Source of the DNA: a virus
Reading direction: 5' to 3' (one strand)
Virus record (IMG/VR): IMGVR_UViG_3300042478_002123
Location: 1-28,372 of that record
Length of the DNA: 28,372 nucleotides
Positions 1 through 20,427 of this stretch are shown one piece after another. Under the pieces are notes generated by a model. That model was not told where the DNA came from and searched no databases. It saw only the letters and a program-made list of their open reading frames with translations. How positions within the stretch are numbered: position 1 is the stretch's first letter; every line of letters begins with the position of its first letter. The position numbers and the translations under genes are program-made.

Positions 1-1867
1 TTTGTATCACAAGCCAGTCATTATTATATAGGTTTACTGAATTTTCGGACAAGGTTATGGAAGATCCGCTGGTTTGATAGGACTGCCTAGAGGTATATAA
101 ATCATAATGATTAATAATCTTATTATAATCTAATGAATTTTGGTAAAATGACATATATTGATATAGAGCCTTTACCGATCCATTAGATTTATGATTTATA
201 GTTAATTCCCCTTCTACTGGCTCCGTTAAGTTAATGACTACATGATATAAATTATTATATTTAAATATATTAGAAATATTAGTTTCTGGGGTCGCATCCA
301 CACCATTTACGTATATAGAGTCAATATTATCTTTATTGACATTTCCTAGACTATCCCAATAATACCCAGTTTCTGTTGAATCTTGTAAAATTAATCCGCT
401 AAATTTAGGAAGTAGGTCTACCACTTCTGCTGGGTTTACGTCTATAGTTTCTGTATTTGGATTAATTTCAGCATTAATAACATTGTTTTGAGATAAAGGA
501 ATGTTTACAATTTCTGCATCGGTTACTGGAAGCAGGAAAAATGGGGTATAAAAAAACTCAATGCTTTTTATTTTATTAGTTAAATTAATTTTAAATCCAG
601 ATTCGCTTGGCGATAATATCCCATTTCTTAAATCTCTAGATACAACTGAATATTTTTTTGATCCCAAATAGTATTCTAAATTTTCAATTTTGGATAAATA
701 CCCTGATCCATTTTTTGAATACATAATTTGATTATTATAAAAGCTAATATTTAAATTATATAATTTTGGTAAATATTTAGATATATCTTCAGAAGAGATT
801 GTTATTCTTATATTTAAAAGTCTACTATCATTAAATTCTAAAGAATTATATTGTGGTATAGATTCTCCATTTGAACATAAAAAATAATTTATTCCGTCTG
901 TGCTAGTTTCTACAGTAACTCCACTGTCTCCAAACCAATCTATTTTTGAAGAATTCATTGTTATTGCAGCTGGCAAAAATATAGTGTCTTCTAAAACAAT
1001 ACTTTTTTCTTCTGGGATTTCACTACTTTTTATTTGTATATATTGATTTGTTTGATCATAATAAAGATCTTCTGTTATTAATTCTTGCCATGATCTATTA
1101 AATGGATATGAATATGAAAAAACTTTACTAATGTCTGTATCATAGAACTCAAAAATTTCTCCGTTGTCAGATTGTGATATTTGTGCTGGACTGGTGTAAC
1201 TATCATTTAAATAATGATCTAAAATTTTTGTACTTGGTAGCCCATATCTATATATTGCTACATCATCTATCAAAAAAGTATCTTGTGTGTCAGATGTAGG
1301 GCCAGATGATATTAATACTTGAGTATTTGTAAATGGATTGCCTTCTATATTTTTACTAATACATAATATGCCGTCTATATAGATATGAGCCTCTTTGACT
1401 AAATAAACACATACAATGTGAATTGATTTATTTACATATGGAAGATTATACTCTAAAGACTCTTGGTCTAATTTAAAAATTATATTTTTATCTTTATAGA
1501 ATATTCCAATATTTTTAGAAGCATCTCCAAGTATTTTTGTTATTTTATCCGTATATATTTTAGGATATATCCAGCATTCTAATGTAAAATCATTATCTCC
1601 GTAATAAACTGTGCCGAATCCTCCTGGGAAATTATTCTGGTAGTACCCGTTTATTATTGGAAAATTTATATTATTGTCTGAATTAACCTCTAAACAGTTT
1701 TGTCCGCCTAATGATAATGGTATCATTTTGGTTGATGTATCAAAAATTCCACTATATGATGCATCATTATTGCATCCAGAAAAATCTTTTAGCGTGCCAT
1801 TTTGAGCACTATCAAGTGTCCAGAATCCTATTGGGTTATCTTTCATAACCATTAATTTATTAGACAT
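1..1867 (-). CDS. LamG-domain phage structural protein, C-terminus beyond the window
   Basis: An open frame starts with ATG at 1867 and runs leftwards through the window edge, giving 622 visible codons. Residues about 8-210 look like a LamG/concanavalin-A-like lectin domain: an N-terminal GFWTLD strand, later DFTLECWIYPK, then a HIYIDGI strand and a closing FLIDDVAIYRYGLP, the usual 'activity/iconic' segment of LamG folds. The rest is Asn/Ser/Ile-rich and beta-strand-like with no named motif. LamG domains in phages are commonly carbohydrate-binding parts of fibres or baseplates, and I infer that role here. It lies just downstream of the oxygenase operon but has its own strong promoter with only 6 nt between the -10 box and the ATG; no good Shine-Dalgarno is present. 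The product is probably made in large amounts. The LamG call is fairly secure; the exact virion position is unknown. Confidence 0.75.
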   Translation of the reverse strand, partial: MSNKLMVMKDNPIGFWTLDSAQNGTLKDFSGCNNDASYSGIFDTSTKMIPLSLGGQNCLEVNSDNNINFPIINGYYQNNFPGGFGTVYYGDNDFTLECWIYPKIYTDKITKILGDASKNIGIFYKDKNIIFKLDQESLEYNLPYVNKSIHIVCVYLVKEAHIYIDGILCISKNIEGNPFTNTQVLISSGPTSDTQDTFLIDDVAIYRYGLPSTKILDHYLNDSYTSPAQISQSDNGEIFEFYDTDISKVFSYSYPFNRSWQELITEDLYYDQTNQYIQIKSSEIPEEKSIVLEDTIFLPAAITMNSSKIDWFGDSGVTVETSTDGINYFLCSNGESIPQYNSLEFNDSRLLNIRITISSEDISKYLPKLYNLNISFYNNQIMYSKNGSGYLSKIENLEYYLGSKKYSVVSRDLRNGILSPSESGFKINLTNKIKSIEFFYTPFFLLPVTDAEIVNIPLSQNNVINAEINPNTETIDVNPAEVVDLLPKFSGLILQDSTETGYYWDSLGNVNKDNIDSIYVNGVDATPETNISNIFKYNNLYHVVINLTEPVEGELTINHKSNGSVKALYQYMSFYQNSLDYNKIINHYDLYTSRQSYQTSGSSITLSENSVNLYNNDWLVIQ

Positions 1868-1903: not shown

Positions 1904-2506
1904 TTACCAAAATTTCTCTTTAAACCAAAAAAGAGGTATCATATATTTTAAACCAGATTTTGTTGGTTTTGGATCATGCATATATGGCTGATAAGATGGA
2001 AAAATTACTAAGCTTCCAGCAGATGGCTTAATCTTAATTCCTTGATTTGGAAACTCTATTTCTCCACCCTCATAATCATCGTTTAAATAGAATACCATTG
2101 AAATTGATGGTTGCTTAATGTTATAAATATCTTCCGTATCTACGTGAGGACCCATGTATGCACTTGTATTATATTTTCTTATTGTAAAATGGTCTGGCAT
2201 GTACCCAGAATCTTGATTAGTTTTTTTACAATAATCCTCTACACAAAAATCTATTAAGTTTTTAAGAGTTTTTGCAATAATAAAAGAACTTGATTCTTCA
2301 TTACAATTATTTAATATATTTGTAAATGAAGCCTCTCTAAATTCTCCATATAGCACATTTGCATTACTAGCATACCATGGCTTCCAATTAGAAAAAATAT
2401 TTGCATTTTCTTGTTCTACATCATTAATTAAATTAATAAAATGATTTAAATCATCAATTAAATTTTCATAATATACAACATTATCACATAGTATTGTTGT
2501 TTTCAT
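1904..2506 (-). CDS. 2OG-Fe(II) oxygenase, prolyl-4-hydroxylase-like (operon gene 8)
   Basis: 200 residues, a full-length single-domain member of the P4H-type double-stranded beta-helix oxygenases. The iron ligands are visible: H121-x-D123 in GPHVDTED and the distal H177 in PYMHDPKP. The family's core strand YLNDDYEGGEIEF follows the HxD motif. The position that normally carries the 2-oxoglutarate-binding Arg/Lys is K187 (GLKYMIP). Such enzymes couple 2-oxoglutarate decarboxylation to hydroxylation, most often of Pro, Lys or other residues in proteins; the substrate here is unknown. The start lies inside the end of the preceding gene (23-bp overlap) with no clear Shine-Dalgarno, so it is probably translated by coupling. 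It is the last gene of the eight-gene operon. Confidence 0.88.
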   Translation of the reverse strand: MKTTILCDNVVYYENLIDDLNHFINLINDVEQENANIFSNWKPWYASNANVLYGEFREASFTNILNNCNEESSSFIIAKTLKNLIDFCVEDYCKKTNQDSGYMPDHFTIRKYNTSAYMGPHVDTEDIYNIKQPSISMVFYLNDDYEGGEIEFPNQGIKIKPSAGSLVIFPSYQPYMHDPKPTKSGLKYMIPLFWFKEKFW

Positions 2507-3302
2507 TATTTTTCATTTTTTCTGAATACTTTATTTGTTTTCCATCTTCAAAATAAAGCATTGCTTCTGGCATTTCTCTTTTAATTCTTTCTTCTTCTAT
2601 TTTAAGCCATTCTCTAGGTCCATAAATTTTTTGACTATTTAACCAAGATTGTGACCCGTCTGAAATATAGGTAATAAAGTTTCTTACAAAAAACTTTTCT
2701 CCTTTTTTAATTGTTTTTACTCCATGAAAATATGGTGGCACTGAAGGGAAGACTAAAATGTCTCCCGCTTTTGGCTTGTGTGAAACAAATTGTCCATCTA
2801 TAAAAAATTCAATATCTCCACCATCATAGTCGTCATTAATGTATGTTGTGCATGTTAAAAAAAACTTTGAACCTGGCCATTCAGCTTCAAATATTTTAAA
2901 ATCTGTGTGATACTGCATTGCTAGATTATTTTCTAAAACATCTAAATCTTTTTTATATTTTGAAAATGAGGAAGACATTAATTGCGCTCCCTCTGGCATA
3001 ACAACATTATTGTTTTTTATATATTCATTTATTGCAATGTTATATGCTTCATAAACACTATCAGATAAAAGTTTTTCTTTATCATACATTTCGCCATACT
3101 CTCTAGCTTCTGAATCTTCGTGTTTTTGTTGAGTATAGGTTCCAAAAACTGACCACTTATCCCATTTTCTTAAATAGTATTTGCCATCAGATGTTTTTTC
3201 AGATTCTTTCATAGTTTGATATAAATCTTCTACATTTGGCAATAAATTTCTATATACCTCTATTTTTGGATAAATTACTATTCTTTGATACTGGTTACTC
3301 AT
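2484..3302 (-). CDS. 2OG-Fe(II) oxygenase, prolyl-4-hydroxylase-like (operon gene 7)
   Basis: 272 residues, the longest oxygenase of the left operon. The metal triad is H132-x-D134 (YHTDF) and H193 (PYFHGV). The conserved core strand YINDDYDGGDIEFF and the turn KPKAGDILVFPS precede the distal His. A basic residue for 2-oxoglutarate is present as K203 or R207 in GEKFFVRNF. It resembles the gene at 23631-24605 more than its operon neighbours, sharing the HGVK and the F[VI]R motifs and a long charged C-terminal tail (residues about 215-272). An AAGGAG Shine-Dalgarno lies about 10 nt before the ATG, which overlaps the previous stop codon (ATGA). Substrate unknown. Confidence 0.88.
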   Translation of the reverse strand: MSNQYQRIVIYPKIEVYRNLLPNVEDLYQTMKESEKTSDGKYYLRKWDKWSVFGTYTQQKHEDSEAREYGEMYDKEKLLSDSVYEAYNIAINEYIKNNNVVMPEGAQLMSSSFSKYKKDLDVLENNLAMQYHTDFKIFEAEWPGSKFFLTCTTYINDDYDGGDIEFFIDGQFVSHKPKAGDILVFPSVPPYFHGVKTIKKGEKFFVRNFITYISDGSQSWLNSQKIYGPREWLKIEEERIKREMPEAMLYFEDGKQIKYSEKMKNNENNNTM

Positions 3303-4024
3303 GCATTTTTCTCCTTTTCGTATTTACTCTTATATGTTGGAATTATTCCATTTTGTCTATCTTGTTCCCATTTTTTATACATTAAATCTTGTTCTGATCT
3401 TATTCCCTTTAGTTCCACTTCCCATTTAGCTTTTTCTTCATCTGTGTAGACTGCATCTGCATCGTCCCAAAATGATCCAATAGTATATCTCTCTCCATTT
3501 TTAACTGTAGTTACTTCGTGCTCATTCTTATATCCACCTTTAAATATTGAAATCATTCCAGTTTTTGGTTTTATATTAATTGGATAATGTTCAAAATTTA
3601 AATTTCCACCATCAAAATTATCATTTAAATATAAAAATATTGCATATTTACTTCTTTGAAATGCTGTAGGGTTACCGTGTTCATCAGAGTTATCGGAATG
3701 AAATCCTGCAAATGCTCCTTCTGTCCATTTTTGTGCATGATAACTAATTTCAGACAGCTTATTGTTAAAACAAATTTCTCCAGCATTTTTTATTTTTTCT
3801 TTAAGGCTGTGAAAATATTTTGGGTCAAAACCAAACGGAATTAAATTATTATCATATTCCCAAAAACCCATAGCATACGATTCATAAAAAGAAATTTGAT
3901 TCCATTTTATGTAATCATTCTGCACAGACATTTCTAAATAATCTATAATTCTTTTGCATTCGTCTTCATTTAAAAAGTTATCTATTGTAAAAACATCGTC
4001 TTTATGTTGTTTTATATCATACAT
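3299..4024 (-). CDS. 2OG-Fe(II) oxygenase, prolyl-4-hydroxylase-like (operon gene 6)
   Basis: 241 residues from the chosen start. Two ATGs are possible, at 4033 and 4024; I chose 4024 because AAAGG sits about 9 nt before it but directly abuts the other. The metal ligands are H109-x-D111 (FHSDNSDEHG) and H169 (NEHEVTTVKNG), with the core strand YLNDNFDGGNLNF between them. R179 in NGERYTIGSFW is the expected 2-oxoglutarate-binding Arg, a more canonical arrangement than the Lys of several neighbours. The N-terminus (IDNFLNEDECKRIIDYL) is the helix typically found ahead of the catalytic domain in this family. It overlaps both neighbours by a few bases. Confidence 0.88.
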   Translation of the reverse strand: MYDIKQHKDDVFTIDNFLNEDECKRIIDYLEMSVQNDYIKWNQISFYESYAMGFWEYDNNLIPFGFDPKYFHSLKEKIKNAGEICFNNKLSEISYHAQKWTEGAFAGFHSDNSDEHGNPTAFQRSKYAIFLYLNDNFDGGNLNFEHYPINIKPKTGMISIFKGGYKNEHEVTTVKNGERYTIGSFWDDADAVYTDEEKAKWEVELKGIRSEQDLMYKKWEQDRQNGIIPTYKSKYEKEKNA

Positions 4025-4736
4025 TATTGTCATCCTTTAATTTAGTTATGGTCCAAAACCAAGGAGATGTGTATCTACATCCTTCTTTAACAACATTAAC
4101 CCCGTGAATATAATTCATATCTCCAGGGAAAAAATATGCTGCTCTAGCTTTTGGTTTAAATGATATATTTTGTTTTGGAAAATGTAACTCCCCGCCTTCA
4201 TAGTCATCATTTAAATAAAATATTGTTCCTAAATCGTACCATGGGAAGTCATTTTCTTTTCCTGCGTCTGGGCCCTCGTGTAACTCTTTATCTGCATGGG
4301 GGAATTGATATGTTCCTTTTGGCCAACGTACAATAGCTGGGTGGGTAGACATGGCCTCTACATTATAAAATGATTCAATAACAGGTTTTAATCTATCTAT
4401 AATATTTCTTAGCATTAGAACAACATCTTGATTTGCTTTCATTAAAGTATTAAGTGTGGCTACTCTATTTTCCCATACCCTATGATCATAAATTATTGTT
4501 CCATTTTCATTATAATGGGATTCTGTAACATCCCAAATTTTATTATTTTTAGCAAAATTTAATAAAAATTCTTGTTCTTCATTTGTTAAAAAGTTTTCTA
4601 TTTCTTGTATCATATCTGAAGATGATCCGAAATAGCCAGAAGGTGTTATTGATTGCCTTGCTGTTCTAATATACTTATTATCGTTTATAGAATCAACATT
4701 TTGAATTATGTCTTTTCCTTTAGCGTTTTCAAACAT
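4017..4736 (-). CDS. 2OG-Fe(II) oxygenase, prolyl-4-hydroxylase-like (operon gene 5)
   Basis: 239 residues. The catalytic core runs from about residue 130 to 230: H147-x-D149 (FPHADKELH), core strand YLNDDYEGGELHFP, distal H211 (NYIHGVNVV) and R221 (GCRYTSPWFW). An N-terminal extension of about 40 residues comes before the family's usual starting helix (IENFLTNEEQEFLLNFA). The start codon is preceded by a near-perfect AGGAGG at about 7 nt, so this gene should be well translated independently of its upstream neighbour, the unknown protein at 4746-5465. Confidence 0.88.
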   Translation of the reverse strand: MFENAKGKDIIQNVDSINDNKYIRTARQSITPSGYFGSSSDMIQEIENFLTNEEQEFLLNFAKNNKIWDVTESHYNENGTIIYDHRVWENRVATLNTLMKANQDVVLMLRNIIDRLKPVIESFYNVEAMSTHPAIVRWPKGTYQFPHADKELHEGPDAGKENDFPWYDLGTIFYLNDDYEGGELHFPKQNISFKPKARAAYFFPGDMNYIHGVNVVKEGCRYTSPWFWTITKLKDDNNV

Positions 4737-4745
4737 ATGTGCCTC

Positions 4746-5465
4746 CTATTTATATTCCTTTGGTACCCAAATATTTTTTTTATAAATTCCTCCGCCTTTT
4801 ACTCTAAAATTTTTAGCAGTCTTAACGTGTTTTTTTACCATTTCTTTTTTTTCATGAAGGACTGGATCCATCGACCAATCCTCTCTTTTAAATGGAATTA
4901 CTTGTGCATACGGAGTTCCTTTTGGAATTAACCCGACAAAATCATTTTTTAAAAAAAATGGAATAAGGCCAGATATAGTATACATATCACTATCTATAAT
5001 ACCATTAGTTGTTAAAAATGGTAAATCAAATCTATTAAGGGGATTTAAAACTAATAAGCTATATCCTTTGGGGGTCTCCATAGCCCAATTTGGCCACCAA
5101 TGAAAATGAGTTTCTCTATATCCACTTGGTACCACAAACTCTGGCATTTTTTCTCTTCTTGCACAAAACTCTTCATATCCTTTTGGCGTTTCTACGTATA
5201 TCTCACCTTTATATTCGTAAAAAGCTAAATCACATGGAGTTTTTAAAAGATACCCTAAAGAAAATGAATCTAGTAACGCTGGGCAAGACTTAAATCCAAG
5301 TCCTCTTTCTCCAAAATTATCAGTTACATAAGATCCATCATCGTTTTTCCAATATTTACTTGCTTGGGAAAACCAATTGGGAATGCTTAATTTTGCTGGT
5401 ACTGGCAAAAAGTCTTTTGAGTCTTTGTTATATGGCCTTGAAGAATGAAAAATAATTTTATTCAT
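4746..5465 (-). CDS. Uncharacterised beta-rich protein, related to its upstream neighbour
   Basis: 239 residues from ATG 5465 (an alternative ATG at 5480 adds five). No HxD...H oxygenase motif is present. The C-terminal half (GYSLLVLNPLNRF, then a DSDMYTISGLIPFFL strand, then GLIPKGTPYAQVIPFKRE) lines up by eye with the same part of the next protein upstream. In both, a LL.(M/L).P.P.N/R.F strand is followed by a hydrophobic pair of strands and a final GxPxxQVIPF or NQPFISIVPIS strand. That pattern resembles phage families annotated only as domains of unknown function (I recall DUF6065, not checked). Being the fourth gene of an oxygenase operon, it could be a partner, adaptor or substrate-binding protein. 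The start overlaps the previous stop by 8 nt, suggesting translational coupling. Confidence 0.6.
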   Translation of the reverse strand: MNKIIFHSSRPYNKDSKDFLPVPAKLSIPNWFSQASKYWKNDDGSYVTDNFGERGLGFKSCPALLDSFSLGYLLKTPCDLAFYEYKGEIYVETPKGYEEFCARREKMPEFVVPSGYRETHFHWWPNWAMETPKGYSLLVLNPLNRFDLPFLTTNGIIDSDMYTISGLIPFFLKNDFVGLIPKGTPYAQVIPFKREDWSMDPVLHEKKEMVKKHVKTAKNFRVKGGGIYKKNIWVPKEYK

Positions 5466-6162
5466 TTTTATTATTAACATAAAGTCTTATTGCTTTTACT
5501 TCATGCTCTCCTATTTTTTGACCTTTATAGTTTACTGCATCTCTGTAAAAATTAGTCCACTTACCGCTATCTGTTTTTTCTTTAACAATTTTAACGTGCT
5601 CTTCTTCTTTTAAAACTACATTATTTTTTATATTTTTATAATTGTCAATTTCAATTATAGAGTTTTGTAAATATGATAAAGATATTGGAACAATTGATAT
5701 AAATGGTTGATTAGCTTTTATAGTAATTTTTGTAAAAGGTTTAGTAATTCTTAATGCACAGGGAAACTCTCCTTTAAAAAATGATGTACTTATAATTGTA
5801 GTAAATGCTTGTGCCCCATCTATAAACATATTTGGAACTGGCATTTGTAACAAACTAACATCTTTATCTGTTTCAAATACTATTCCAGTTTTAAAACTTA
5901 TTGTTGCATTAGCTCTTTCTGTATAGCAGTATTCTTCGCCTTCTAATATTTTAACATGATTTCCAGATGTGTCTGATATTCCGTCCCATACAAAAGAAAT
6001 ATCTTTTGGAAATGAAAGGCCCCACCCTAAGCCATTTGCTAATGTTACTGGAAAACACTTATATGCATGACCATCTACTGTATTGTCCATCCAGTCTCTT
6101 TTAATATTTATTTGAGAAATATTTGCAGAGTTATTATTTTTATAGGCTGTAACTTTATACAC
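5458..6162 (-). CDS. Uncharacterised beta-rich protein, possible DUF6065-like
   Basis: 234 residues with a GTG start at 6162 that overlaps the TAG of the preceding oxygenase by one base. The segment around residues 34-60 (YKCFPVTLANGLGWGLSFP) followed by FVWDG is what I associate with DUF6065 proteins of phages and bacteria, a tentative memory-based assignment. Residues about 102-165 share strand order and hydrophobic pattern with the downstream protein (4746-5465), so the two look like divergent paralogues. There are no catalytic His/Asp motifs of oxygenases. It lies between two oxygenase genes in the same operon, which suggests a shared pathway; its molecular role is unknown. Confidence 0.6.
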   Translation of the reverse strand: MYKVTAYKNNNSANISQINIKRDWMDNTVDGHAYKCFPVTLANGLGWGLSFPKDISFVWDGISDTSGNHVKILEGEEYCYTERANATISFKTGIVFETDKDVSLLQMPVPNMFIDGAQAFTTIISTSFFKGEFPCALRITKPFTKITIKANQPFISIVPISLSYLQNSIIEIDNYKNIKNNVVLKEEEHVKIVKEKTDSGKWTNFYRDAVNYKGQKIGEHEVKAIRLYVNNKNE

Positions 6163-6857
6163 TATGCATAATTTTCTGTATATTTTTTTTCTATTTCTCT
6201 ATATTCTGGAGTATGTGGTGCTTCTAGATAGTCTAACATAGTTACTATAGAATACTTAACACCTTTTGTGACTGGCATAGCTGCGTGAGAATATATATAA
6301 GATGAAGGAAATAGGTATAGATCGCCAGCCTTTGGTTTAATTTTTAAATTAAATTTATCAAAAAATAACTCTCCGCCTTCATAATCGTCATTTATATATC
6401 CGACTGATGAGAGCACACAGATATAAGAATATCCGTGATCAGAATGAACTTGGAAATGTTGATCTTCTCCGTATTTAACAAAATTAAAGGATTCCCAATA
6501 ATTTAAAGGAGCAAGCCCAAACATTTTGCTATAGTCTTTAACTGGATCTATCTGTGCTACGTATGAATCTTCCCAAATTTTTTCTAAAGCATATTCAGTT
6601 TCTTTTTTATTTTCTGGGGGGACGCTTTCTCCGCCTAGCATCAAATATCCATTAGGATTACTTTTTATTTTAAAATCGGCACAATCTCTATATCTTTTAT
6701 CTTCTAGATTATATCCTGTTTTTGCAGTTTTCCATTTATATGGGTTGTTTTCTTTTGATAATTCATTTTCTAATCTTGCAACTAAATTCATTGACTCTGT
6801 AAAAACATTTCTATAGACCATAATTCCTGGTGCTAAGTATTCTGCATTTTCTAACAT
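6162..6857 (-). CDS. 2OG-Fe(II) oxygenase, prolyl-4-hydroxylase-like (operon gene 2)
   Basis: 231 residues. Metal ligands are H138-x-D140 in FQVHSDHGY and H191 in YIYSHAAMPV, with the core strand YINDDYEGGELFF and the turn KPKAGDLYLFPSS between them. K201 (GVKYSIVTM) takes the place of the usual 2-oxoglutarate Arg. It is clearly a tandem paralogue of the gene just upstream (6858-7475): both share LNYWESFNFVKY, HSDHG, the LYLFPSS turn and KYSIVTM. This copy carries an insertion around residues 68-90. An AAAGGAG Shine-Dalgarno lies about 6 nt before the ATG and overlaps the preceding stop region. Confidence 0.9.
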   Translation of the reverse strand: MLENAEYLAPGIMVYRNVFTESMNLVARLENELSKENNPYKWKTAKTGYNLEDKRYRDCADFKIKSNPNGYLMLGGESVPPENKKETEYALEKIWEDSYVAQIDPVKDYSKMFGLAPLNYWESFNFVKYGEDQHFQVHSDHGYSYICVLSSVGYINDDYEGGELFFDKFNLKIKPKAGDLYLFPSSYIYSHAAMPVTKGVKYSIVTMLDYLEAPHTPEYREIEKKYTENYA

Positions 6858-7475
6858 TTATACTCCTTTATGATGCTTATCGTTATAATCAAACATTGTT
6901 ACTATCGAATATTTTGTACCAGATTTTATTGGTAGCGATTTATGAGAATATATAAAAGAAGATGGGAATAAGTATAATTGCCCAGCTTTTGGTTTAATGT
7001 ATATGTTTAATTTTGGAAAATATAATTCGCCACCATCATAATTATCATTTAAATAACCTACTCCAGAAACTGTACAAACATATGCGTCGCCGTGATCTGA
7101 GTGCTCTTCAAAATGATGACCCTCTGTATATTTAACAAAATTAAATGATTCCCAATAATTTAATTTAATATTATACATACTTGAATAGTCTTCTAAACAT
7201 TCCTTTTGAGCATTATAAGAGTCCTGCCAAATAGATTGTAATTCTAGACTACTTTTATTTTTTATAATAGAAAAATTATTGGATTTTGCAATTTTAAAAT
7301 CTAAACAATTTCTATATTCTGGAATTTTTTTCTTCCATCCTACCATTGCTTCTTTCCAGGAATATATTCCGTTGCTTTGTTTTATTGTACTCTCTACTCT
7401 TTCAATTAAATTAAGAGAATCTGGAAATACGTTTTCATACAGCCAAATACCATATCCTACTTCTATTTTTTGCAA
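6858..7475 (-). CDS. 2OG-Fe(II) oxygenase, prolyl-4-hydroxylase-like (operon gene 1)
   Basis: 205 residues with a TTG start at 7475, preceded by an AGAAAG ribosome-binding site that recurs elsewhere in this genome. Ligands are H125-x-D127 (EEHSDHGDAY) and H178 (IYSHKSLPI), core strand YLNDNYDGGELYF, and K188 (GTKYSIVTM) at the 2-oxoglutarate position. It is the shorter tandem paralogue of the next gene. As first gene of the oxygenase operon it sits right behind the promoter at 7502-7530. Its upstream neighbour is the Pro-Pro-Gly-repeat/Hint protein, which makes that protein a natural candidate substrate (inference). Confidence 0.88.
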   Translation of the reverse strand: MQKIEVGYGIWLYENVFPDSLNLIERVESTIKQSNGIYSWKEAMVGWKKKIPEYRNCLDFKIAKSNNFSIIKNKSSLELQSIWQDSYNAQKECLEDYSSMYNIKLNYWESFNFVKYTEGHHFEEHSDHGDAYVCTVSGVGYLNDNYDGGELYFPKLNIYIKPKAGQLYLFPSSFIYSHKSLPIKSGTKYSIVTMFDYNDKHHKGV

Positions 7476-7501
7476 AATAAATTCTTTCTACTAGTTTATT
7501 T

Positions 7502-7530
7502 ATTATAGCAAAATAATCTAAAAATGTCTA
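7502..7530 (-). promoter_or_regulatory. Promoter of the oxygenase operon (extended -10)
   Basis: On the minus strand TAGACA (7525-7530), a 17-bp spacer and TATAAT (7502-7507), with TGC immediately before the -10 forming an extended -10 element. It lies in the 57-bp gap between the Hint-protein gene and the first oxygenase, so the operon can be transcribed separately from the structural genes. The same TGn-TATAAT form occurs ahead of 8908-11571 and 13667-14224. Confidence 0.6.
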
Positions 7531-7532
7531 GG

Positions 7533-8894
7533 TTATTTATTATGCGTTAATATGCCATTGGCATAAATTAAATCATATGGTTCTGCGTTGAAGGTATGAA
7601 CAGTACATTCTTCGGTAATTACCTCTAAAGATATAATTTCTTCTGAAATAATATTACCGTTCGAATCATGTTTAGATAATATGTCTCCAACCTGAATTGA
7701 TCCAGCCAAAATAAAACTATTTTGTCCGTTTCTAGTAATAAACATTGGATGCTCTGCTGTAAACCTAGAAGAAGGATCATTATTAATAATAATTGTTTCT
7801 TCTGCTAGAGAAGTATATTTATTAATAACTTCTGTTTTTACCAGCTCTCCAAATGTTGCTGTTGGACTTGACCAAAATAATGATGAATAAGCAGCTTCAT
7901 CTGCTGGCAGTTCTTGAATATCTACTGCCCATATCCAGTCACCTTCTTGAACATCTTTTGCTGATTTATACTCAATAGAATCATTTTCACCAACAACTGT
8001 TACTGGCGTGTCATCATGTAAGCATTTGCTAAAGTATGGTGGGCCAAAGAATCTTGGAGGTGCAAAGAATCCTGGAGGTGCAAAGAATCCTGGAGGACTA
8101 AAGAATCCTGGAGGACTAAAGAATCCTGGAGGTGCAAAGAATCCTGGAGGTGCAAAGAATCCTGGAGGTGCAAAGAATCCTGGAGGTGCAAAGAATCCTG
8201 GAGGTGCAAAGAATCCTGGAGGTGCAAAGAATCCTGGAGGACTAAAGAATCCTGGAGGACTAAAGAATCCTGGAGGTGCAAAGAATGACGGTGGAGAAAA
8301 GAAAGTAGTTACTGAGTTCGTGGAAGCACCAGTAGATGTTCCATTAGCATTAATTGCATAAACGGTATAACTTTGTGTCTGCCCACCAGTTTCGTCAATA
8401 TTACGTGATGTGACTGTAATATTTTCATATGATGGCCCATCACTTGATACAACGGTATATGATGAAATTGCTTTACCGCCAGTTTCTGGGGCAGTCCATG
8501 TAACATCATCTCTGTTTGCTACAGAAGAAGATACTGACGGAGAAACTGGTGCCTGCGGTACTGTAGTTACCAATATAGATGAAGATGGGTCTGAAGATAC
8601 AGAGTTTCCGTATGAATTAGTTCCATAAACTGTAAATGTATAACTTGTATTTGATGCTAGTCCAGTCATTGTTAATGGAGAAGACGACCCACTAACTGTC
8701 AATCCTGTAGGACTTGAAGTTACTGTAAAAGAAGATGCTTCTGGTGATCCTGCTGGCAATTCAAAAGAAATAATAGCGGATCCATTATTATATGCTCTTC
8801 CCGTTCCTACATCTGAAACAGAATTAATTATTGGTTTTTGCGGCTCTAAGAAATCGTTTGTCGCTTGTGATTTTCTACCAGATCTTTTGCTCAT
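7533..8894 (-). CDS. Fibronectin-III / Pro-Pro-Gly repeat / Hint-domain virion protein
   Basis: 453 residues in three parts. Residues about 15-195 form two fibronectin-type-III-like domains (SYTFTVYGTNSYG and QSYTVYAINANG are the typical last-strand motifs). Residues 200-289 are fifteen 6-residue units of consensus (A/S)PPGFF. Residues 291-453 are a Hint (hedgehog/intein) domain: C291 begins it (CLHDDTPV), a block-B-like TAEH with H at about 382 follows, and it ends in ILTHNK with H451-N452 one residue from the C-terminus. Since only Lys follows N452, splicing is impossible, but N-S acyl shift at C291 and cleavage or transfer of the N-terminal part is plausible. There is no signal peptide. 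It is preceded by AAGGAG 9 nt before the ATG and lies at the end of the fibre block, so a virion-associated adhesion role is likely (inference). Confidence 0.82.
   Translation of the reverse strand: MSKRSGRKSQATNDFLEPQKPIINSVSDVGTGRAYNNGSAIISFELPAGSPEASSFTVTSSPTGLTVSGSSSPLTMTGLASNTSYTFTVYGTNSYGNSVSSDPSSSILVTTVPQAPVSPSVSSSVANRDDVTWTAPETGGKAISSYTVVSSDGPSYENITVTSRNIDETGGQTQSYTVYAINANGTSTGASTNSVTTFFSPPSFFAPPGFFSPPGFFSPPGFFAPPGFFAPPGFFAPPGFFAPPGFFAPPGFFAPPGFFSPPGFFSPPGFFAPPGFFAPPRFFGPPYFSKCLHDDTPVTVVGENDSIEYKSAKDVQEGDWIWAVDIQELPADEAAYSSLFWSSPTATFGELVKTEVINKYTSLAEETIIINNDPSSRFTAEHPMFITRNGQNSFILAGSIQVGDILSKHDSNGNIISEEIISLEVITEECTVHTFNAEPYDLIYANGILTHNK
8028..8297 (-). repeat. Fifteen tandem 18-bp units coding (A/S)PPGFF
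   Basis: Read on the minus strand, residues 200-289 are 15 in-frame 6-residue units. Twelve are exact (A/S)PPGFF; the outer three are SPPSFF, APPRFF and GPPYFS. DNA units are almost identical, differing mainly between GCA/AGT-type codons for the Ala/Ser position, which indicates recent expansion by slippage or unequal exchange. Each unit presents X-Pro-Gly, the motif hydroxylated by collagen prolyl 4-hydroxylases. Confidence 0.95.
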
Positions 8895-8907: not shown

Positions 8908-11571
8908 TTATGCCTTAAGATCTCCGTATACTACCCAAGAGTTGGTTGCTCTCTTGAATAATGTACATGATGACCATTGAGTACGTAATTTTAATCCAGG
9001 AGTAGCATTTACAGTTACCCCAGTATCTCCTGCAATTGTAATTAAGCCAGTATTTGTACCAAGTATATCTAGAGTTGTTCCAATTGGATAAGCAACTGCT
9101 GAGTTAGTTGGGATTGTTATTGTTACTGGGCTTGTAGAATCTACCTCTATTAATGAGTCTCTTTCAGATAGTTCAGATAATGTGTAGTTTGCAGTTTTTG
9201 AAATAATTGGAGTTCTTGAAGGAACGCCTTCTTTTGTTTGGGTACCATCTGAAAATGCTACTCCAGAAGATGCTGTTATTACTCCTGAGAATGTTGGTGC
9301 ATTTTCTACTGCAATTGTTGCACCATCCTTTGTAATGTTTGTGCCAGCAATTACTGCCTCAGAAGCATTAAACTGTACGTAGCTAATATTTGTAGTTCCG
9401 ATTGTAATTGTTCCTGTTGTACTAACAAGGAAGCCTTTAGAACCATTTGATGAGCCAGATGTTACGAATACGAAGTCTCCAGTTGAAACTTCTCCCGCAG
9501 GACTATTATCGCTGTCTGCTGCACGAGTAATTTGCCAAGGATTTGAACCATCTCCTACAGCGGTAATTGTGTAAATACCATTTTCTTTAGCATCAGTTTG
9601 TGCACGAAGAAGAATTCTATCTCCTACAGCAACTGCTGCTCCGTCGATAGTTCCTATAGATCCATTTGTTGCTTTTGTTAATGTTGCTCCCACTCCAGAA
9701 GTACCATTGTTATATGTTCCAGCAAGGTTTCCTGCAGTTGCTGCAATTACTGGTTGATGAAAGTTAATTCCAGCTGCAAGTCCATCAACATACTGTTTAG
9801 TTACTGCGTGGAGATCTGACGTAGGTGCACCTGAAAGTGTTAGTGCTCCTGTCATTGTTCCACCAGCAAGTGCTAGTTTAGCGTCTAAAGCTGTTTGTGT
9901 AGCAGTTGATACTGGTTTGTTGGCGTCAGATGTATTATCAACATTTCCTAATCCAACCATTGTTGCTGTAATTCCTGTTGCTGTTGTTGTTACTGAAAGC
10001 GTAGGTATTGTTACGGTACCAGTAAATGTTGGTCCTGCTATATTAGACTTTAAATTGTCTGCGTCGTCTACATATGTCTTTGTAGCAAGAGCAGATGTGT
10101 CTGCAATACCGTGTACAGATGTAGTTGCAGAATTGTGATTGGAAACTGCTGTTCCTAGATTTGATGCCGTGGTGATTGCTTCTTGAGTTACAGCATTGTC
10201 TGCATATGTTTTTGTAGCAAGAGCAGATGTGTCTGCAATACCGTGAATATTTGTAGTATCTGATTCGTGGGTTGAAACAGCGCTATCTGCATATGTTTTT
10301 GTAGCAAGAGCAGATGTGTCTGCAATACCGTGAATATTTGTAGTATCTGATTCGTGGGTTGAAACAGCGCTATCTGCATATGTTTTTGTTGCCAATAAAG
10401 ATGTATCTGCAATACCATGAATATTAGTTGTATCAGATTCGTGTGTAGATAAGTCAGTTGATGACGCCTTACTATTTAATTGTGTTTGTATAGAAGATGT
10501 AACGCCGTCTACATAATTAAGTTCTGTTGTAGATAATGTTGCACCGTAAAGTATATTTAACTCTGTAGCGCTTGCTGTTAAAGGCACATCCTCATTAATT
10601 TTAGGGGAATTTAAAGTTTTGTTTGTAACGGTTTGTGTTCCATCTGTTGTAAGAAGCTTAGATGTGTCTGCAATACCATGAATATTTGTAGTATCTGATT
10701 CGTGGGTTTGAACAGCTCCAGTAGTAAAGCTTTCTAGCGTACTTTGTAATGAATCTAAATTATCTAGAATTGCTAATTCTTTTGAATTTGCTGCTCCATA
10801 ATTAGCTACCCATTTATCATTTACTTCATCCCATTGAATAAATGCTGGTAGTGAAGATCCTCGTCTTACAGAGAATGCAGCACTAAGAGTCGGAGCTCCA
10901 GTAGATACATTTGAATTTAAAATAATTTCATTATCTTCTACAAGAAGTTCTGCAGTATTTAATGTTGTTGTATCTCCAGAAACTGTCAAATTTCCAGGAA
11001 CTACTAAATCTCCAGAACTTGTAAATACTGCTACTGTTCCTGTAGCATTTGGAAATGTAATTGTTTGATCTTCTGTAGGATTTGTTACTGTAAGGGTTGT
11101 TTCATATGCGTCTGCAGATGATCCCTCTAAAATAATGCTTGATTTTGGAACCAATAAGTTTCCATCGACATCTAACTTTGCTGGTCCGCCTGCGTTACCA
11201 ACATCTGCTAGTAATACATAATCTGCTGCTGCTGCGTTGTCTAATCCAGTTATTTGATCATCGACATAAGATTTAAGTGCAACAACTGATGAGTCAATAT
11301 TAAGAGAAATTGTATTTGTGCCATCATTGTAAGATTTTGTAAGACCTGCTCCCATTGAAAGTGCTGAGTCGATTGCATCTTGTGCAATTTCTGTAATTCC
11401 TGGTGCATCTGATGCAATGTATGCAAGGCTAGTCCATGCTGTGTTGCCAGTTCCAACTTTAATTTTTCTGGTGTCTGTTTCAACACCCATTTCACCTGCG
11501 GCTAATGTAGGATTTGCTGAGGTCCATTCTGATGCTGTTCCTCGTCTTACTTGAATTCTTACTGTTGACAT
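8908..11571 (-). CDS. Large tail fibre / receptor-binding protein with Mtd-type N-terminus
   Basis: 887 residues. Residues 5-50 (RRGTASEWTSANPTLAAGE, ETDTRKIKVGTGNTAW) match the N-terminal virion-attachment domain of the major tropism determinant family and many phage fibres. The middle carries TxLNTxxxxVEDNExILNSNV and an RGSS..FIQWDEVNDKWVAN module shared with the 525-residue fibre (14649-16226). It also carries TATELNILYGATLSTTELNYVDGVTSSIQTQLN-like modules, here and in the 535-residue fibre, and four or five HESDTTNIHGIADTS repeats. Residues about 590-760 contain the widespread fibre domain with KQYVDGLAAGIN, GDRILLRAQT and ENGIYTI. The C-terminus is beta-rich. An AAGGGG site precedes the ATG, behind an extended -10 promoter. 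It likely forms a trimeric fibre that recognises host surface glycans or proteins (family knowledge plus inference). Confidence 0.85.
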   Translation of the reverse strand: MSTVRIQVRRGTASEWTSANPTLAAGEMGVETDTRKIKVGTGNTAWTSLAYIASDAPGITEIAQDAIDSALSMGAGLTKSYNDGTNTISLNIDSSVVALKSYVDDQITGLDNAAAADYVLLADVGNAGGPAKLDVDGNLLVPKSSIILEGSSADAYETTLTVTNPTEDQTITFPNATGTVAVFTSSGDLVVPGNLTVSGDTTTLNTAELLVEDNEIILNSNVSTGAPTLSAAFSVRRGSSLPAFIQWDEVNDKWVANYGAANSKELAILDNLDSLQSTLESFTTGAVQTHESDTTNIHGIADTSKLLTTDGTQTVTNKTLNSPKINEDVPLTASATELNILYGATLSTTELNYVDGVTSSIQTQLNSKASSTDLSTHESDTTNIHGIADTSLLATKTYADSAVSTHESDTTNIHGIADTSALATKTYADSAVSTHESDTTNIHGIADTSALATKTYADNAVTQEAITTASNLGTAVSNHNSATTSVHGIADTSALATKTYVDDADNLKSNIAGPTFTGTVTIPTLSVTTTATGITATMVGLGNVDNTSDANKPVSTATQTALDAKLALAGGTMTGALTLSGAPTSDLHAVTKQYVDGLAAGINFHQPVIAATAGNLAGTYNNGTSGVGATLTKATNGSIGTIDGAAVAVGDRILLRAQTDAKENGIYTITAVGDGSNPWQITRAADSDNSPAGEVSTGDFVFVTSGSSNGSKGFLVSTTGTITIGTTNISYVQFNASEAVIAGTNITKDGATIAVENAPTFSGVITASSGVAFSDGTQTKEGVPSRTPIISKTANYTLSELSERDSLIEVDSTSPVTITIPTNSAVAYPIGTTLDILGTNTGLITIAGDTGVTVNATPGLKLRTQWSSCTLFKRATNSWVVYGDLKA
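10202..10375. repeat. Two exact 87-bp tandem copies (plus degenerate neighbours) in a fibre gene
   Basis: The 87-bp unit starting GCATATGTTTTTGTAGCAAG at 10202 is repeated at 10289, and a diverged third copy begins at 10376. It encodes a 29-residue module (THESDTTNIHGIADTS, ALATKTYADSAV). Further diverged copies flank it. Exact identity implies recent duplication, probably altering fibre length. Confidence 0.9.
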
Positions 11572-17416: not shown

Positions 17417-19351
17417 CTATGCAGAGATATCTACAAGTTCACAATTTCCGTCAGACGTACATGCAAGTGTGGCGTTTGTAGAAGTTCCATCTTCTGTTTC
17501 ATAAAAAGATAAATCTTCCCAACGAATAGACTTTGGCATCTTAGACAACAAGTCTTCGTATTCTTTTTTTGTTATTTCCTGATATGGTGCTTGCTTGTAT
17601 GAATGATCAGAAGAAGGCAAGAATGAGATTCCAGAAACTTCATCAAAGTTTTTGTATACCCAGGCGCCAACTTCCATCCATTCGTCTTCTTTTACTGACA
17701 CAGTAATTGAAGGCTTATGCTCACACCATGCTCTTTGATAAACAAGCCATGTGTTTAAATGATCTATAGCGGTTAAATCATTTCTAACAATTGCATCGTC
17801 TGGAGATTTTATTGGAAAAGAAAATACATATGTTTCTGTTGGTTTCATGACATCATCTTCGACTGGTATGCCCACTTCTTTTAAGAAAACAGAGATTGGG
17901 TCTGTCTTTGATCCACGAACTGTTCTAATATAATATTTAGAGTGCCACGGATGCATTCCAGAAGAAACTCCGACTAGCTGCGAGACTGTACCTGACGGCT
18001 TAACGCAAGTAATTGCTGCTGACTCTTGAATTCCAATTTTTTTAGCCTCTTCAGCATTTACCTTTCTTGCTGATTCACGAAGAGATACAAGAGTTTGCTC
18101 TAGTTTGTCTAAACCTTCTTGTCCAGAAAAGAATTTATGTCCAAATTGTCCTGTTAAAGATACGCCAAGCAGTCTTTCTTCTTCTGTATTATCTTTCCAA
18201 ATTTTACGCAAATATTTAAAGTCTGTTAATGTAGATTGCCACGTTCCTAAAATAGTGGCAAGTCTTACTTTATTCTTAACATCATCAACTGTATCCTTTT
18301 CACGTAATACGACTTCTGAAAGGTTACAAAACTGATAAGGACGCAAAATAATTTCTGAGCAAGGGTTTGTCCCATAGTGTATTTCAGGATCCCGCCTTCC
18401 ATATCTAGCTGCCTGTGCTTGTGCAGCGGCAACATTATAAATTCCACGTTCTCCAGATTTTGAGTCATAAAGATTTTTCCATTCTGCTATAAATTGTGCC
18501 ATTTCTGGTTTTCTAGAATAAGCAACTGAGTTATTTGACAATGCTCTTTGTGGATTGTTCTCCCACCAATTACCTGACTTAGCTGCTGCCATTTCAATAT
18601 CATTAATATTAGAAAGAGATATCATTGCAGATCTACGAACGCCACCAACTACAACAACTTCTCCAATTTTACACATAAGGTCGTGACATTCAATTGGCTT
18701 TAAATTTCTTCCAACTGCATTTTTAAATATTTTAATTGTAAAATCAAAAAGATTTACTAATGGTTGTGGTCCAGAAGATCTTCCGCCCATAGTTTTAAGT
18801 CTTGCGCCTGCGGGTCTAAGTTTAGTTACATCAACTGCTGGAATCTGTCCAGACCAAAGCAATGCTAATAGTTCACGATATGCTTTTGCCCAACCTTGTT
18901 TTGAATCTTCTACTGTAATTACTGTAGTTGATTTTTCTAAAGATTCTGGGACAGCAGGAAGTTTATTAATATACTTATACTCAACAGAAAACCCTACGCC
19001 AGTGCCACACATAAGGATATACATTGTTTCATCAAATGAACGTGGTGAATCAACTGGAACAAATGAACAATTGTATCCAGCAACATGATCTCTTTCTAAT
19101 GCTGGGCCAGAAGTCATTACTGCTCTCATTGATGGCATAACGTTTCTGTCTAAAACTGCTTGTTTTAATTCTGATATTAATTTTGCTGAAGGTTCGTATG
19201 AGTATTCTTTAAATAAATGATCTAGCATAAAAGAAAAATATCTATCTACAGTTTCTTGCCAATTTTCTCTGCGGTTTTCTTCTGGAACCCACTTTGCATA
19301 TCTAGATAATGCAATAAAATTTTCATATGGGTTTTCAATTGTAAATGACAT
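17417..19351 (-). CDS. nrdJ: Class II (adenosylcobalamin-dependent) ribonucleoside-triphosphate reductase
   Basis: 644 residues, close to but shorter than the 739 of the Lactobacillus monomeric enzyme. It converts ribonucleoside triphosphates to deoxyribonucleotides for phage DNA synthesis. Recognisable parts: C95 in GYNCSFVPVD, the GTGVGFSVE loop, GGVRRSAMISLSN, C331 in NPCSEIILRPYQFC with C342 directly after, and CVKPSGTVSQLVGVSSG. C95/C342 would be the active-site redox pair and C331 the thiyl-radical cysteine by family analogy. C631 and C637 form the C-terminal re-reducing pair (CTSDGNC). No N-terminal ATP cone is evident. The enzyme needs B12 from the host. GGAGAAAAGG precedes the ATG. 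No cobalamin riboswitch is visible in the 86-bp gap upstream. Confidence 0.93.
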   Translation of the reverse strand: MSFTIENPYENFIALSRYAKWVPEENRRENWQETVDRYFSFMLDHLFKEYSYEPSAKLISELKQAVLDRNVMPSMRAVMTSGPALERDHVAGYNCSFVPVDSPRSFDETMYILMCGTGVGFSVEYKYINKLPAVPESLEKSTTVITVEDSKQGWAKAYRELLALLWSGQIPAVDVTKLRPAGARLKTMGGRSSGPQPLVNLFDFTIKIFKNAVGRNLKPIECHDLMCKIGEVVVVGGVRRSAMISLSNINDIEMAAAKSGNWWENNPQRALSNNSVAYSRKPEMAQFIAEWKNLYDSKSGERGIYNVAAAQAQAARYGRRDPEIHYGTNPCSEIILRPYQFCNLSEVVLREKDTVDDVKNKVRLATILGTWQSTLTDFKYLRKIWKDNTEEERLLGVSLTGQFGHKFFSGQEGLDKLEQTLVSLRESARKVNAEEAKKIGIQESAAITCVKPSGTVSQLVGVSSGMHPWHSKYYIRTVRGSKTDPISVFLKEVGIPVEDDVMKPTETYVFSFPIKSPDDAIVRNDLTAIDHLNTWLVYQRAWCEHKPSITVSVKEDEWMEVGAWVYKNFDEVSGISFLPSSDHSYKQAPYQEITKKEYEDLLSKMPKSIRWEDLSFYETEDGTSTNATLACTSDGNCELVDISA

Positions 19352-19437
19352 TTATATACGACCTTTTCTCCGCCAACGCAGTTTTAAAATTTGATTGAAG
19401 TCTAAGTGTACCAAACTTTATTTTATTGGTCTAGGTT

Positions 19438-20427
19438 TTAATTAAGTTTTTTTAAAATTTTATCAAATGAATTCTTAGTCAACTGCTCCCAATTATAATC
19501 TTTATGTATTTTAGTTGACTGAGAGAAATAATATCCTGAATATGCATTAAAGTTTATTGAAACATCTCTCATAAGTTCAAGTAGATGTTGATAGTTTGGT
19601 TCAAAAACTTTTCCTTCGTGTGGGAATGGCCAAGGTGAATCTATTAGTTCTGATTTTAATTTTAATGGACCTAAATATTTTTCATAATGTGCCCAGCCGC
19701 TTGTACAAATTGTTGGCATGCCAGTTGCTAGTGCTTGAAGTGGAATAAATCCAAATCCTTCTCCATAGCTTGGATATACTAAAACATCATGAGACTGATA
19801 CAGGCTTACAAGCTCTTCGTCATTTAAAACATCTGTAATCACAGACACATTGTTGTAATATTTATCTGGAACACCTAAAATATTTTTATCTAGATAATTG
19901 TTATATACTCTAGTTGTATTTATTTGATCTGCTTTAATGGTTAACAAATATCCTTCTTTATTTCCAAACAAACTACCAAATGCATCTAGTACCATTTGTC
20001 CAGCTTTTCTTGGTGCTGGTTCTCCTATATGTAAAAATTTAATCACACCGTCTTCTTTTCTTCTATTTGGCATCCACATAGGATCAATGCCGTGTGGGTA
20101 TACATTAGAAACCTTAAAACCATTATCTTCAAATACATTTGCACACCAATCTGAAGTTACCCAAACTTCGTCGCATGCATCCATATAATATTTCCAATCT
20201 TCTGGAATTACAGTAGATTCCCATGGTGTATAACTAATTTGATATTGATTTTTATGTAATTTAAAATGTGATGGTTGTGAAAAATTTAATTGTAATTTAG
20301 ATTTTGGATCTTGAAATGGAGTAAAGTGTCCTAAGTTATTTAAAGATTTTATTATATTTTTACTTGCATATCCATATCCATTATTAGTTCTTAGGTTAAC
20401 TATAGGCGTAGAAAATGAAATATTCAT
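19438..20427 (-). CDS. GT4-family glycosyltransferase
   Basis: 329 residues. The start (NISFSTPIVNLRTNNGYGYA) is a typical donor/acceptor Rossmann entry of GT-B enzymes and the C-terminal signature SYGEGFGFIPLQALATGMP (about residues 220-238) is the EX7E-type donor-binding motif. KFLHIGEPAPRKAGQ marks the linker to the nucleotide-sugar domain. It probably transfers a sugar from a nucleotide donor to a phage or host target; which one cannot be told. It could glycosylate hydroxylated residues on virion proteins, as follows hydroxylation in eukaryotic collagen (speculation). The start has the AGAAAG ribosome-binding site. Confidence 0.85.
   Translation of the reverse strand: MNISFSTPIVNLRTNNGYGYASKNIIKSLNNLGHFTPFQDPKSKLQLNFSQPSHFKLHKNQYQISYTPWESTVIPEDWKYYMDACDEVWVTSDWCANVFEDNGFKVSNVYPHGIDPMWMPNRRKEDGVIKFLHIGEPAPRKAGQMVLDAFGSLFGNKEGYLLTIKADQINTTRVYNNYLDKNILGVPDKYYNNVSVITDVLNDEELVSLYQSHDVLVYPSYGEGFGFIPLQALATGMPTICTSGWAHYEKYLGPLKLKSELIDSPWPFPHEGKVFEPNYQHLLELMRDVSINFNAYSGYYFSQSTKIHKDYNWEQLTKNSFDKILKKLN

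Follow-up and report, generated by a model that had tools for sequence, protein, structure and literature searches.

What do the prolyl hydroxylase genes of viral DNA act on? The question is raised by a locus in a 28,372-base virus record of IMG/VR (IMGVR_UViG_3300042478_002123; hereafter the window, meaning the whole stretch analysed), in which a protein with an array of Pro-Pro-x-Phe (PPxF) repeats is encoded on the minus strand ahead of a cassette of 2-oxoglutarate (2OG)-dependent Fe(II) dioxygenase genes. Viral prolyl 4-hydroxylase (P4H) genes are already known, rank among the most frequent auxiliary genes in aquatic viruses, and have no explained use. P4HA was found at 62% of Baltic water stations, where its use "remains cryptic" (PMC9301287), and a structure-based phage survey, which names no substrate in the part available, places PHROG 61 among the commonest groups with human hits, EGLN3 being the most-hit human protein (PMC12774648). 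We regard it as probable that the PPxF repeat forms the stalk in a fibre or appendage protein of the phage, and that the enzymes of the cassette next to it have this stalk as their substrate.

The span from 6858 to 8894 covers both the gene of the repeat protein, at 7533-8894, and, at 6858-7475, the first of the 2OG genes. Translation confirmed what an earlier note on this DNA had reported, a 453-residue protein with 15 (A/S)PPGFF-type units, 12 of them exact, upstream of hydroxylase genes. The array protein and the cassette comprise the following features.

7533..8894, minus strand: array protein, FN3 + (PPxFF)15 + Hint, 453 amino acids (open reading frame, ORF, reading; Pfam)
8580..8789, minus strand: FN3 domain, residues 36-105 (PF00041, E value 2.7e-8)
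8028..8297, minus strand: 15 hexads of (A/S)PPGFF type, residues 200-289 (translation, repeat analysis)
7536..8027, minus strand: Hint or intein-like C-terminal domain, Cys at residue 291, THNK end (weak PF14890 match, below cut-off)
6858..7475, minus strand: array-proximal 2OG-Fe(II) dioxygenase with a P4H-like model (PF13640, E 1.2e-11; predicted local distance difference test score, pLDDT, 95.5; Z score 20.6 to 3gze)
6162..6857, minus strand: 2OG-Fe(II) dioxygenase of tree clade 3, in hexad operons only (clade support 0.42; PF13640, E 2.3e-12)
5458..6162, minus strand: DUF6065 protein, conserved cassette member, dUTPase-like fold in the model (PF19541, E 3e-28)
4746..5480, minus strand: phrog_7084 protein, conserved cassette member, probable paralogue of the DUF6065 protein (phrog_7084, E 3.4e-30)
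4017..4736, minus strand: 2OG-Fe(II) dioxygenase of core clade 0, in 45/45 distinct operons (PF13640, tree)
3299..4033, minus strand: 2OG-Fe(II) dioxygenase of core clade 1, in 39/45 (PF13640, tree)
2484..3302, minus strand: 2OG-Fe(II) dioxygenase of core clade 2, in 32/45 (PF13640, tree)
1904..2506, minus strand: 2OG-Fe(II) dioxygenase of clade 4, in 19 hexad operons and 1 tetrad operon (PF13640, tree)

The hexads of the window run in the order SPPSFF, APPGFF, two SPPGFF, six APPGFF, two SPPGFF, APPGFF, APPRFF, and GPPYFS. At the DNA level, Tandem Repeats Finder places the array at 8045-8286 with a period of 18 and 13.4 copies; its score of 393 and 94% matches indicate that the array DNA is not a product of chance. 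Two further open frames over the same DNA, 8008-8361 on the plus strand and 8000-8281 in a different minus-strand frame, with KNPGGA and LQDSLH repeats, were rejected as genes and are shadows of the hexad DNA. The array sits between the FN3 domain, which is followed by a second FN3-like stretch judged by eye, and a C-terminal Hint or intein-like domain; neither the FN3 nor the Hint-type domain appeared in the earlier note. A profile of 20 array-protein tails (A4), with a Cys start and a His-Asn end each in at least 90% of its rows, matches the bacterial intein-like domain 2lwy (E 2.3e-8) and several inteins. Among tails of relatives classed as Hint-type by a coarse rule, the first residue is Cys in 60/68 and Ser in 8/68. 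By this family profile we assign the tail of the window protein to the Hint type, its own PF14890 match lying below the cut-off.

The array gene ends 57 nt ahead of the first cassette gene. Behind it, on the same strand, follow two 2OG genes, the DUF6065 gene, the phrog_7084 gene, and four more 2OG genes, which overlap or abut in all pairs except one. All six dioxygenases match PF13640 above the Pfam cut-off; five match PHROG 61 at E values of 3.7e-18 or below, and the enzyme at 2484 matches phrog_2297 only. Because the genes right behind the repeat encode enzymes resembling the proline hydroxylases of collagen and plant cell walls, the repeat is probably their substrate.

That these genes are prolyl-hydroxylase-like, as the earlier note had proposed, is borne out by profile searches and by a structure model. 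A profile of 56 array-proximal enzymes (A3; the window enzymes at 6858 and 6162 plus 54 first 2OG genes after an array) was compared to PDB sequences, and all 29 matched at E<1e-3 are prolyl or lysyl protein hydroxylases, EGLN1, PKHD-type proteins, or the algal P4H 3gze. The top match is a bacterial P4H, 3itq (E 2.6e-14). Lower matches include PKHD proteins, prolyl 3-hydroxylase, LH3, another procollagen lysyl hydroxylase, EGLN1, PBCV-1 P4H, human C-P4H, and algal P4H. No AlkB or TET protein is among the PDB sequences matched at E<1e-3. The iron triad (H125, D127, and H178) is present in 56/56 rows of the profile, and the 2OG-binding position 188 is K in 44 and R in 12.

The model of the 6858 enzyme (pLDDT 95.5) has as its nearest structures Trichoplax PHD and an algal P4H in complex with (Ser-Pro)5, both with Z scores of 20.6, followed by Pseudomonas P4H with EF-Tu (20.2), PHD2 (19.7), and PBCV-1 P4H (17.9). 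The top 50 structures (Z 20.6 to 16.9) are all P4H or PHD enzymes with the exception of a putative oxygenase, 3dkq (Z 17.8), and Foldseek agrees. As modelled, then, the array-proximal enzyme is built like a peptidyl-prolyl hydroxylase, in its fold as in its metal triad. Given the profile matches, the model neighbours, and the invariant triad, a peptidyl-prolyl hydroxylase is the best reading, with the activity predicted. The existence of the (Ser-Pro)5 complex shows that this fold can accept a Gly-free proline-rich peptide. A role in DNA repair is suggested by Syn9, whose 2OG genes adjoin UvsX and UvsY (PMC2984593); we did not adopt it for this cassette, as the profile finds protein hydroxylases and no AlkB or TET at the same threshold.

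The module extends well beyond the window and is common in viral DNA. A two-unit PPGFF pattern matches at least 119 IMG/VR stretches. There is a second form of array, the tetrad PP[FHY]F with a period of 4, directly upstream of 2OG operons that lack hexads; a tetrad pattern that fixes position 3 as F, H, Y, or L finds at least 120 stretches in viral contigs. For three pattern scans, the tetrad scan among them, contigs were picked from 80 listed of at least 120 stretches, and second loci of one contig (L041, L051, L105) were dropped before counting. We compiled 240 unique array ORFs with their downstream genes; 11 of these, from L131-L143, are bacterial chance hits and were excluded from the array statistics, leaving at least 229 distinct array ORFs. 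A looser three-unit pattern gave 13 stretches in 84,980 bacterial and archaeal genomes, none with the phage architecture. Twelve of the 13 yield ORFs, which by eye are low-complexity or antisense frames (L131 yields none), and therefore no bacterial home of the module was found among those genomes. Chance or antisense artefact was rejected as the source of the viral arrays. In 50,697 isolated-phage records tblastn gave no match to the array protein, BLAST masking low complexity, and DUF6065 likewise had no tblastn match among isolated phages.

Position 3 of the hexad is open: in 1299 units from 110 distinct hexad arrays it is G in 690 (53%), S in 156, A in 121, R in 95, L in 74, and V in 54. 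Position 4 is F in 1299/1299, never Y or W, and position 5 is F in 1289/1299, where the search rule presets the two prolines and an aromatic pair but neither the choice of F over Y or W nor the freedom at position 3. Position 6 is mainly A, S, or G, and codons vary across the 1299 units. Gly occupies less than 30% of position 3 in 17/110 hexad arrays, two of which have none, and no PPG occurs anywhere in 93/105 tetrad array ORFs. Since position 3 is open and tetrad arrays exist, the common unit is Pro-Pro-x-Phe, not X-Pro-Gly. The earlier note had argued from X-Pro-Gly as the hydroxylated sequence, an argument that fails on these counts and on the homologous operons behind PP[FHY]F tetrads; its statement that the array is not a collagen triple helix stands, as there is no Gly-X-Y triplet and the period is 6, or 4 in relatives.

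Array and dioxygenase genes are linked with a strict polarity. A same-strand 2OG gene lies within 2.5 kb downstream of 145/167 non-redundant array genes (83/88 for hexads and 62/79 for tetrads; duplicates removed, array genes with 2.5 kb of downstream sequence counted) and upstream of 0/131. PF13640 occurs in 50/50 hexad contigs of at least 31 kb, in 2 to 15 copies and in 49 with a match above the cut-off (50 of 52 such contigs, L068 and the contig of L115/L127 being left out), and in 32/35 tetrad contigs. It is found in 1/42 random viral contigs collected with an arbitrary 15-mer, a control that is not habitat-matched because many of its contigs bear isolate-type record ids and are read as prophages. 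Contigs with an Mtd_N motif are a closer control, though enriched in kin of the window, whose own fibre holds that motif. In 38 Mtd_N-motif contigs of at least 20 kb (L010, a near-copy of the window, excluded), PF13640 is present in 20, with five or more copies in 10, and arrays are present in 8 (2 hexad, 6 tetrad). Five or more copies occur in 8/8 array-bearing versus 2/30 array-free contigs (Fisher 9e-7) and at least one copy in 8/8 versus 12/30 (p 0.003), p-values that describe association only because the phages are related and the sets overlap. One contig of this set, G077, is of the window type, 100% identical at 22705-23352, with no array in the stretch covered.

Searches begun from the enzymes and from DUF6065 lead back to the array. 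Around relatives of the 2OG gene at 6162 (73 new loci of 80 examined), 63 have an array upstream; nine of the ten others start less than 3.6 kb from the contig start, the array being taken as lost beyond it. The ORF of the tenth, L178, does contain PPGFF units, along with ambiguous bases. The earlier note had pointed to co-occurrence across relatives as the matter to check, and to many relatives with the operon and no repeat protein as what would speak against it. A search with a DUF6065 alignment, which used neither array nor 2OG sequence, found an array at 51/51 loci with at least 3 kb upstream (42 hexad, 9 tetrad); repeat protein and operon thus do co-occur across relatives, and the contrary pattern named in the note was not borne out. 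In all 68 array-bearing DUF6065 loci the array lies 0.7-3.0 kb upstream, and the 12 without one have less than 3 kb upstream; the 80 loci, at 53-100% identity, were the best of 595, and many of them lie on contigs of the other sets. Tetrad PPFF arrays also occur inside larger proteins on two contigs without a PF13640 match (L380, 4421-7171, plus strand; L443, 1761-2738, plus strand), which are possible unmodified arrays.

Where the sequence around the 240 array ORFs suffices, the recurring order is array, one or two 2OG genes, DUF6065 and/or phrog_7084, further 2OG genes, and fibre genes; in hexad phages the fibre genes are followed by genes read as portal, protease, and capsid, the capsid being checked by tblastn. 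A DUF6065 and/or phrog_7084 gene is present in most cassettes compiled. As judged from sequence, then, the array gene comes first in a co-directional cassette, made up of 2OG dioxygenases and the DUF6065/phrog_7084 pair, that lies among genes for fibres and heads. We built a tree of 267 enzymes encoded by 45 distinct operons, 25 of them hexad and 20 tetrad, each having four or more 2OG genes. Clade 0 (window enzyme 4017; support 0.95) occurs in all 45, and clades 1 (3299; 0.76) and 2 (2484; 0.99) have the narrower distributions given above; the number of 2OG enzymes per operon reaches ten (L424). An array at the head of all 45 is no evidence, because its presence was how these operons were selected. 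Hexad and tetrad operons have different array-proximal clades, apart from some exceptions (tetrad L231 and L367 in clade 6, hexad L040 and L179 in clade 5), and because of these and of confounding by phylogeny the match of array type to enzyme type is a hint only.

The DUF6065 protein also matches phrog_7084 (E 2.4e-6), so it and the 4746 protein, which has no PDB sequence match at E<=1, are probably paralogues. The DUF6065 model (pLDDT 92.8) resembles dUTPase (1duc, Z 10.9, 117 residues aligned, root-mean-square deviation [rmsd] 4.6; Foldseek E 5.9e-4, TM-score 0.36 by query length). On this model the protein has a dUTPase-like fold, and dUTPase function is not assumed. In most hexad operons with a gene chain long enough to show it, the cassette is followed by LamG-type genes; in the tetrad chains, which were followed for 12 genes, such genes are rare. 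In one group of relatives (L186, 14890-15993, plus strand), the gene directly after the cassette encodes a Peptidase_S74 domain (E 1.2e-11) and GATGATG stretches, with a Pfam Collagen match below the cut-off (E 0.005); this collagen-like protein is a possible second substrate.

A fibre role for the array protein is suggested by its gene block and by the tails of two relatives, L415 and L012, in which the array is followed by Peptidase_S74 above the cut-off (E 3.7e-11 and 7.4e-10). The window protein has no Peptidase_S74 domain in the Pfam scan and carries a Hint tail instead; other relatives end in Hint domains, Cys-rich tails, or shortly after the array. By a coarse rule the 229 proteins comprise 68 Hint, 4 S74-like, and 26 Cys-rich tails, 90 that end with the array, some of them cut by contig ends, and 41 others, several with Hint-like starts. 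In front of the array are FN3 domains and, once, PASTA (PF03793, E 8.6e-6), the latter in a second tetrad-array protein of the same phage (L370, 754-1437, plus strand), which looks like a stalk reused on different heads. The module revealed by these sequences is thus a tandem run of PPxFF[ASG] hexads or PP[FHY]F tetrads behind FN3, PASTA, or other domains, often ahead of a Hint tail and rarely of an S74 tail. As for lineage, the ribonucleotide reductase of the window is 65% identical to that of Stanwilliamsviridae Streptomyces phages, and the capsid protein of a relative is 58-62% identical to that of Streptomyces phages. In Streptomyces phage Sham (Stanwilliamsviridae) the order is glycosyltransferases, ribonucleotide reductase, endolysin, a large and a small hypothetical gene, portal, protease, and capsid, and the window has the same pair of glycosyltransferase then ribonucleotide reductase at 17417-20427 (minus strand). 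These identities and the gene order place array and cassette in the fibre locus of an actinophage-like lineage. The relatives point to Actinobacteriota as possible hosts, a group in which freshwater Nanopelagicales have been brought into stable culture and their first phages described (PMC10202952). The single Sham record has no PF13640 match.

How strong, then, is the case that the cassette hydroxylates the array? Several observations weigh against it. Kinship among the phages, and contigs common to the forward and reverse sets, mean that the counts are not independent events, and an old shared fibre locus could hold neighbours together. No same-strand 2OG gene lies within 2.5 kb of 22/167 array genes, some being second arrays, and PF13640 has no match on three of the tetrad contigs (G093, G119, G123), though G123 matches our own profile in the part covered. 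Phage 2OG enzymes evidently have other jobs, as PF13640 is also present in 12/30 Mtd_N contigs that lack an array, and 2OG genes occur in marine cyanophages, in several cases adjoining helicase genes. Phe, Tyr, His, or another fibre could be the target of the enzymes. Amino-acid analysis of a purified virus with a P4H, PBCV-1, found no hydroxyproline, according to a reference cited in PMC7019647. An unmodified array is a rival to be weighed: the repeat would be a hydrophobic or polyproline linker, and the dioxygenases would act elsewhere, on LamG or collagen-like fibres, the host surface, a nucleotide, or a small molecule, both travelling in one exchanged fibre module. All the genes do lie in one fibre or adhesin block, LamG-type genes follow most hexad cassettes with a long enough gene chain, one group has the collagen-like S74 fibre, and there are the three tetrad contigs lacking PF13640. 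The polarity of 145/167 against 0/131, the array at every DUF6065-selected locus with room for it, the rarity of LamG-type genes within the 12 genes followed in the tetrad chains, and a profile that retrieves peptide hydroxylases and no AlkB or TET at E<1e-3 make this reading rather improbable.

A different rival keeps the array as the target and moves the mark: the cassette would modify it not, or not only, at proline, with the invariant Phe or x oxidised, or with several marks. Four or more different 2OG enzymes per operon are more than one proline mark requires, although operons with fewer than four were not placed in the tree; Phe is as constant as Pro in the hexad units found, and array type goes with a different array-proximal clade, save for the exceptions noted. 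Yet the nearest structures to the array-proximal enzyme are prolyl hydroxylases, and no 2OG enzyme of this clade is known to us to hydroxylate an aromatic residue, so we hold this rival to be unlikely, if worth keeping in view. Least credible is ordinary collagen-type hydroxylation of X-Pro-Gly with an essential Gly. PPG is the commonest unit both in the window and overall, but operons of this kind also stand behind Gly-poor hexads (for example L153 and L169) and behind most tetrads, and X-Pro-Gly specificity was rejected on the position-3 counts and the tetrad arrays; we give this rival almost no weight.

Under the reading that we favour, proline hydroxylation of the stalk, array and enzymes would be made together in the infected cell, and the proximal P4H-like enzymes would hydroxylate array prolines, probably to 4-hydroxyproline and with no requirement for Gly. 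Hydroxylation would stiffen a polyproline-II-like rod, raise its polarity, or supply attachment sites. The core enzymes, common to nearly all operons, may bring about oxidation at further residues in the array protein or in neighbouring fibres, and the Hint tail, as predicted, would then probably cleave itself off or join the stalk to another virion part. A broader proposal, held only tentatively, is that of a dedicated fibre-maturation cassette in which 4-10 dioxygenases, together with the pair of dUTPase-fold proteins, would oxidise several residues in a pattern along a PPxF rod found only in viruses.

Cassette and array gene are flanked in the window by two further putative fibre or adhesin genes.

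2..1867, minus strand: LamG-type putative virion adhesin adjoining the cassette, cut by the window edge (PF13385, E 1.2e-10)
8908..11571, minus strand: Mtd_N tail-fibre-type protein just upstream of the array gene (PF18454, E 3e-16)

Within the Mtd_N fibre gene an 87-bp tandem repeat at 10199-10443 (2.8 copies, 93% matches) encodes THESDTTNIHGIADTS-type units. Three more PF13640 genes lie outside the cassette, at 21697-22239 (minus strand), 22705-23352 (plus strand), and 23586-24605 (plus strand). The last also has a weak match to the halogenase-family WelO5 (E 1e-3, below the cut-off), and a search with the 22705-23352 gene found two contigs, both 100% identical.

Among the closest known systems is Chlamydomonas P4H-1 (PDB 3gze), the joint nearest fold to the 6858 model (Z 20.6, rmsd 2.2, 172 residues aligned, 22% identity), whose crystal, by its title, holds a Gly-free proline-rich peptide. 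Algal and plant P4H enzymes act on proline-rich wall proteins; they are eukaryotic, single enzymes working in the secretory pathway, unlike a phage cassette with several enzymes and a PP-x-aromatic repeat. The P4H of PBCV-1 (PDB 5c5t) is viral and acts on proline-rich repeat peptides, but it belongs to a eukaryotic virus, and to our knowledge PBCV-1 has no such cassette or DUF6065 pair. Collagen-like phage fibres share a proline-rich, fibre-type repeat adjoining P4H-like genes, whereas the array has no Gly-X-Y, a period of 6 or 4, and aromatics in every unit. The tail resembles bacterial intein-like (BIL)/Hint domains in its Cys start, HN end, and profile match to 2lwy, and differs in that it closes a phage stalk at the C terminus and in that HN is followed by Lys or by a few residues. 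From PHROG 61 and the viral "P4HA" auxiliary genes, to which five cassette enzymes are related, the present case differs in that a substrate gene is proposed. Among the open-access papers searched, we found no title or abstract start that describes the repeat-plus-cassette module and no naming of DUF6065, and the string PPGFF occurs in two papers that by title look unrelated. As we read it, the novelty lies in the setting in which P4H would act on a proline-rich repeat, and in the repeat unit, PPxF.

PPxF is thus a concrete candidate substrate for the abundant and unexplained prolyl hydroxylase genes of viruses, and the question is now testable. If this reading is true, phages make hydroxylated proline-rich fibres, and virion maturation has a step that depends on oxygen, iron, and 2-oxoglutarate. 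If the fibre-maturation cassette exists as proposed, bacterial viruses would have an analogue of the chemistry of extensin or mussel adhesive, and many of the abundant viral "prolyl hydroxylase" genes in natural waters, so far unexplained, would be accounted for.

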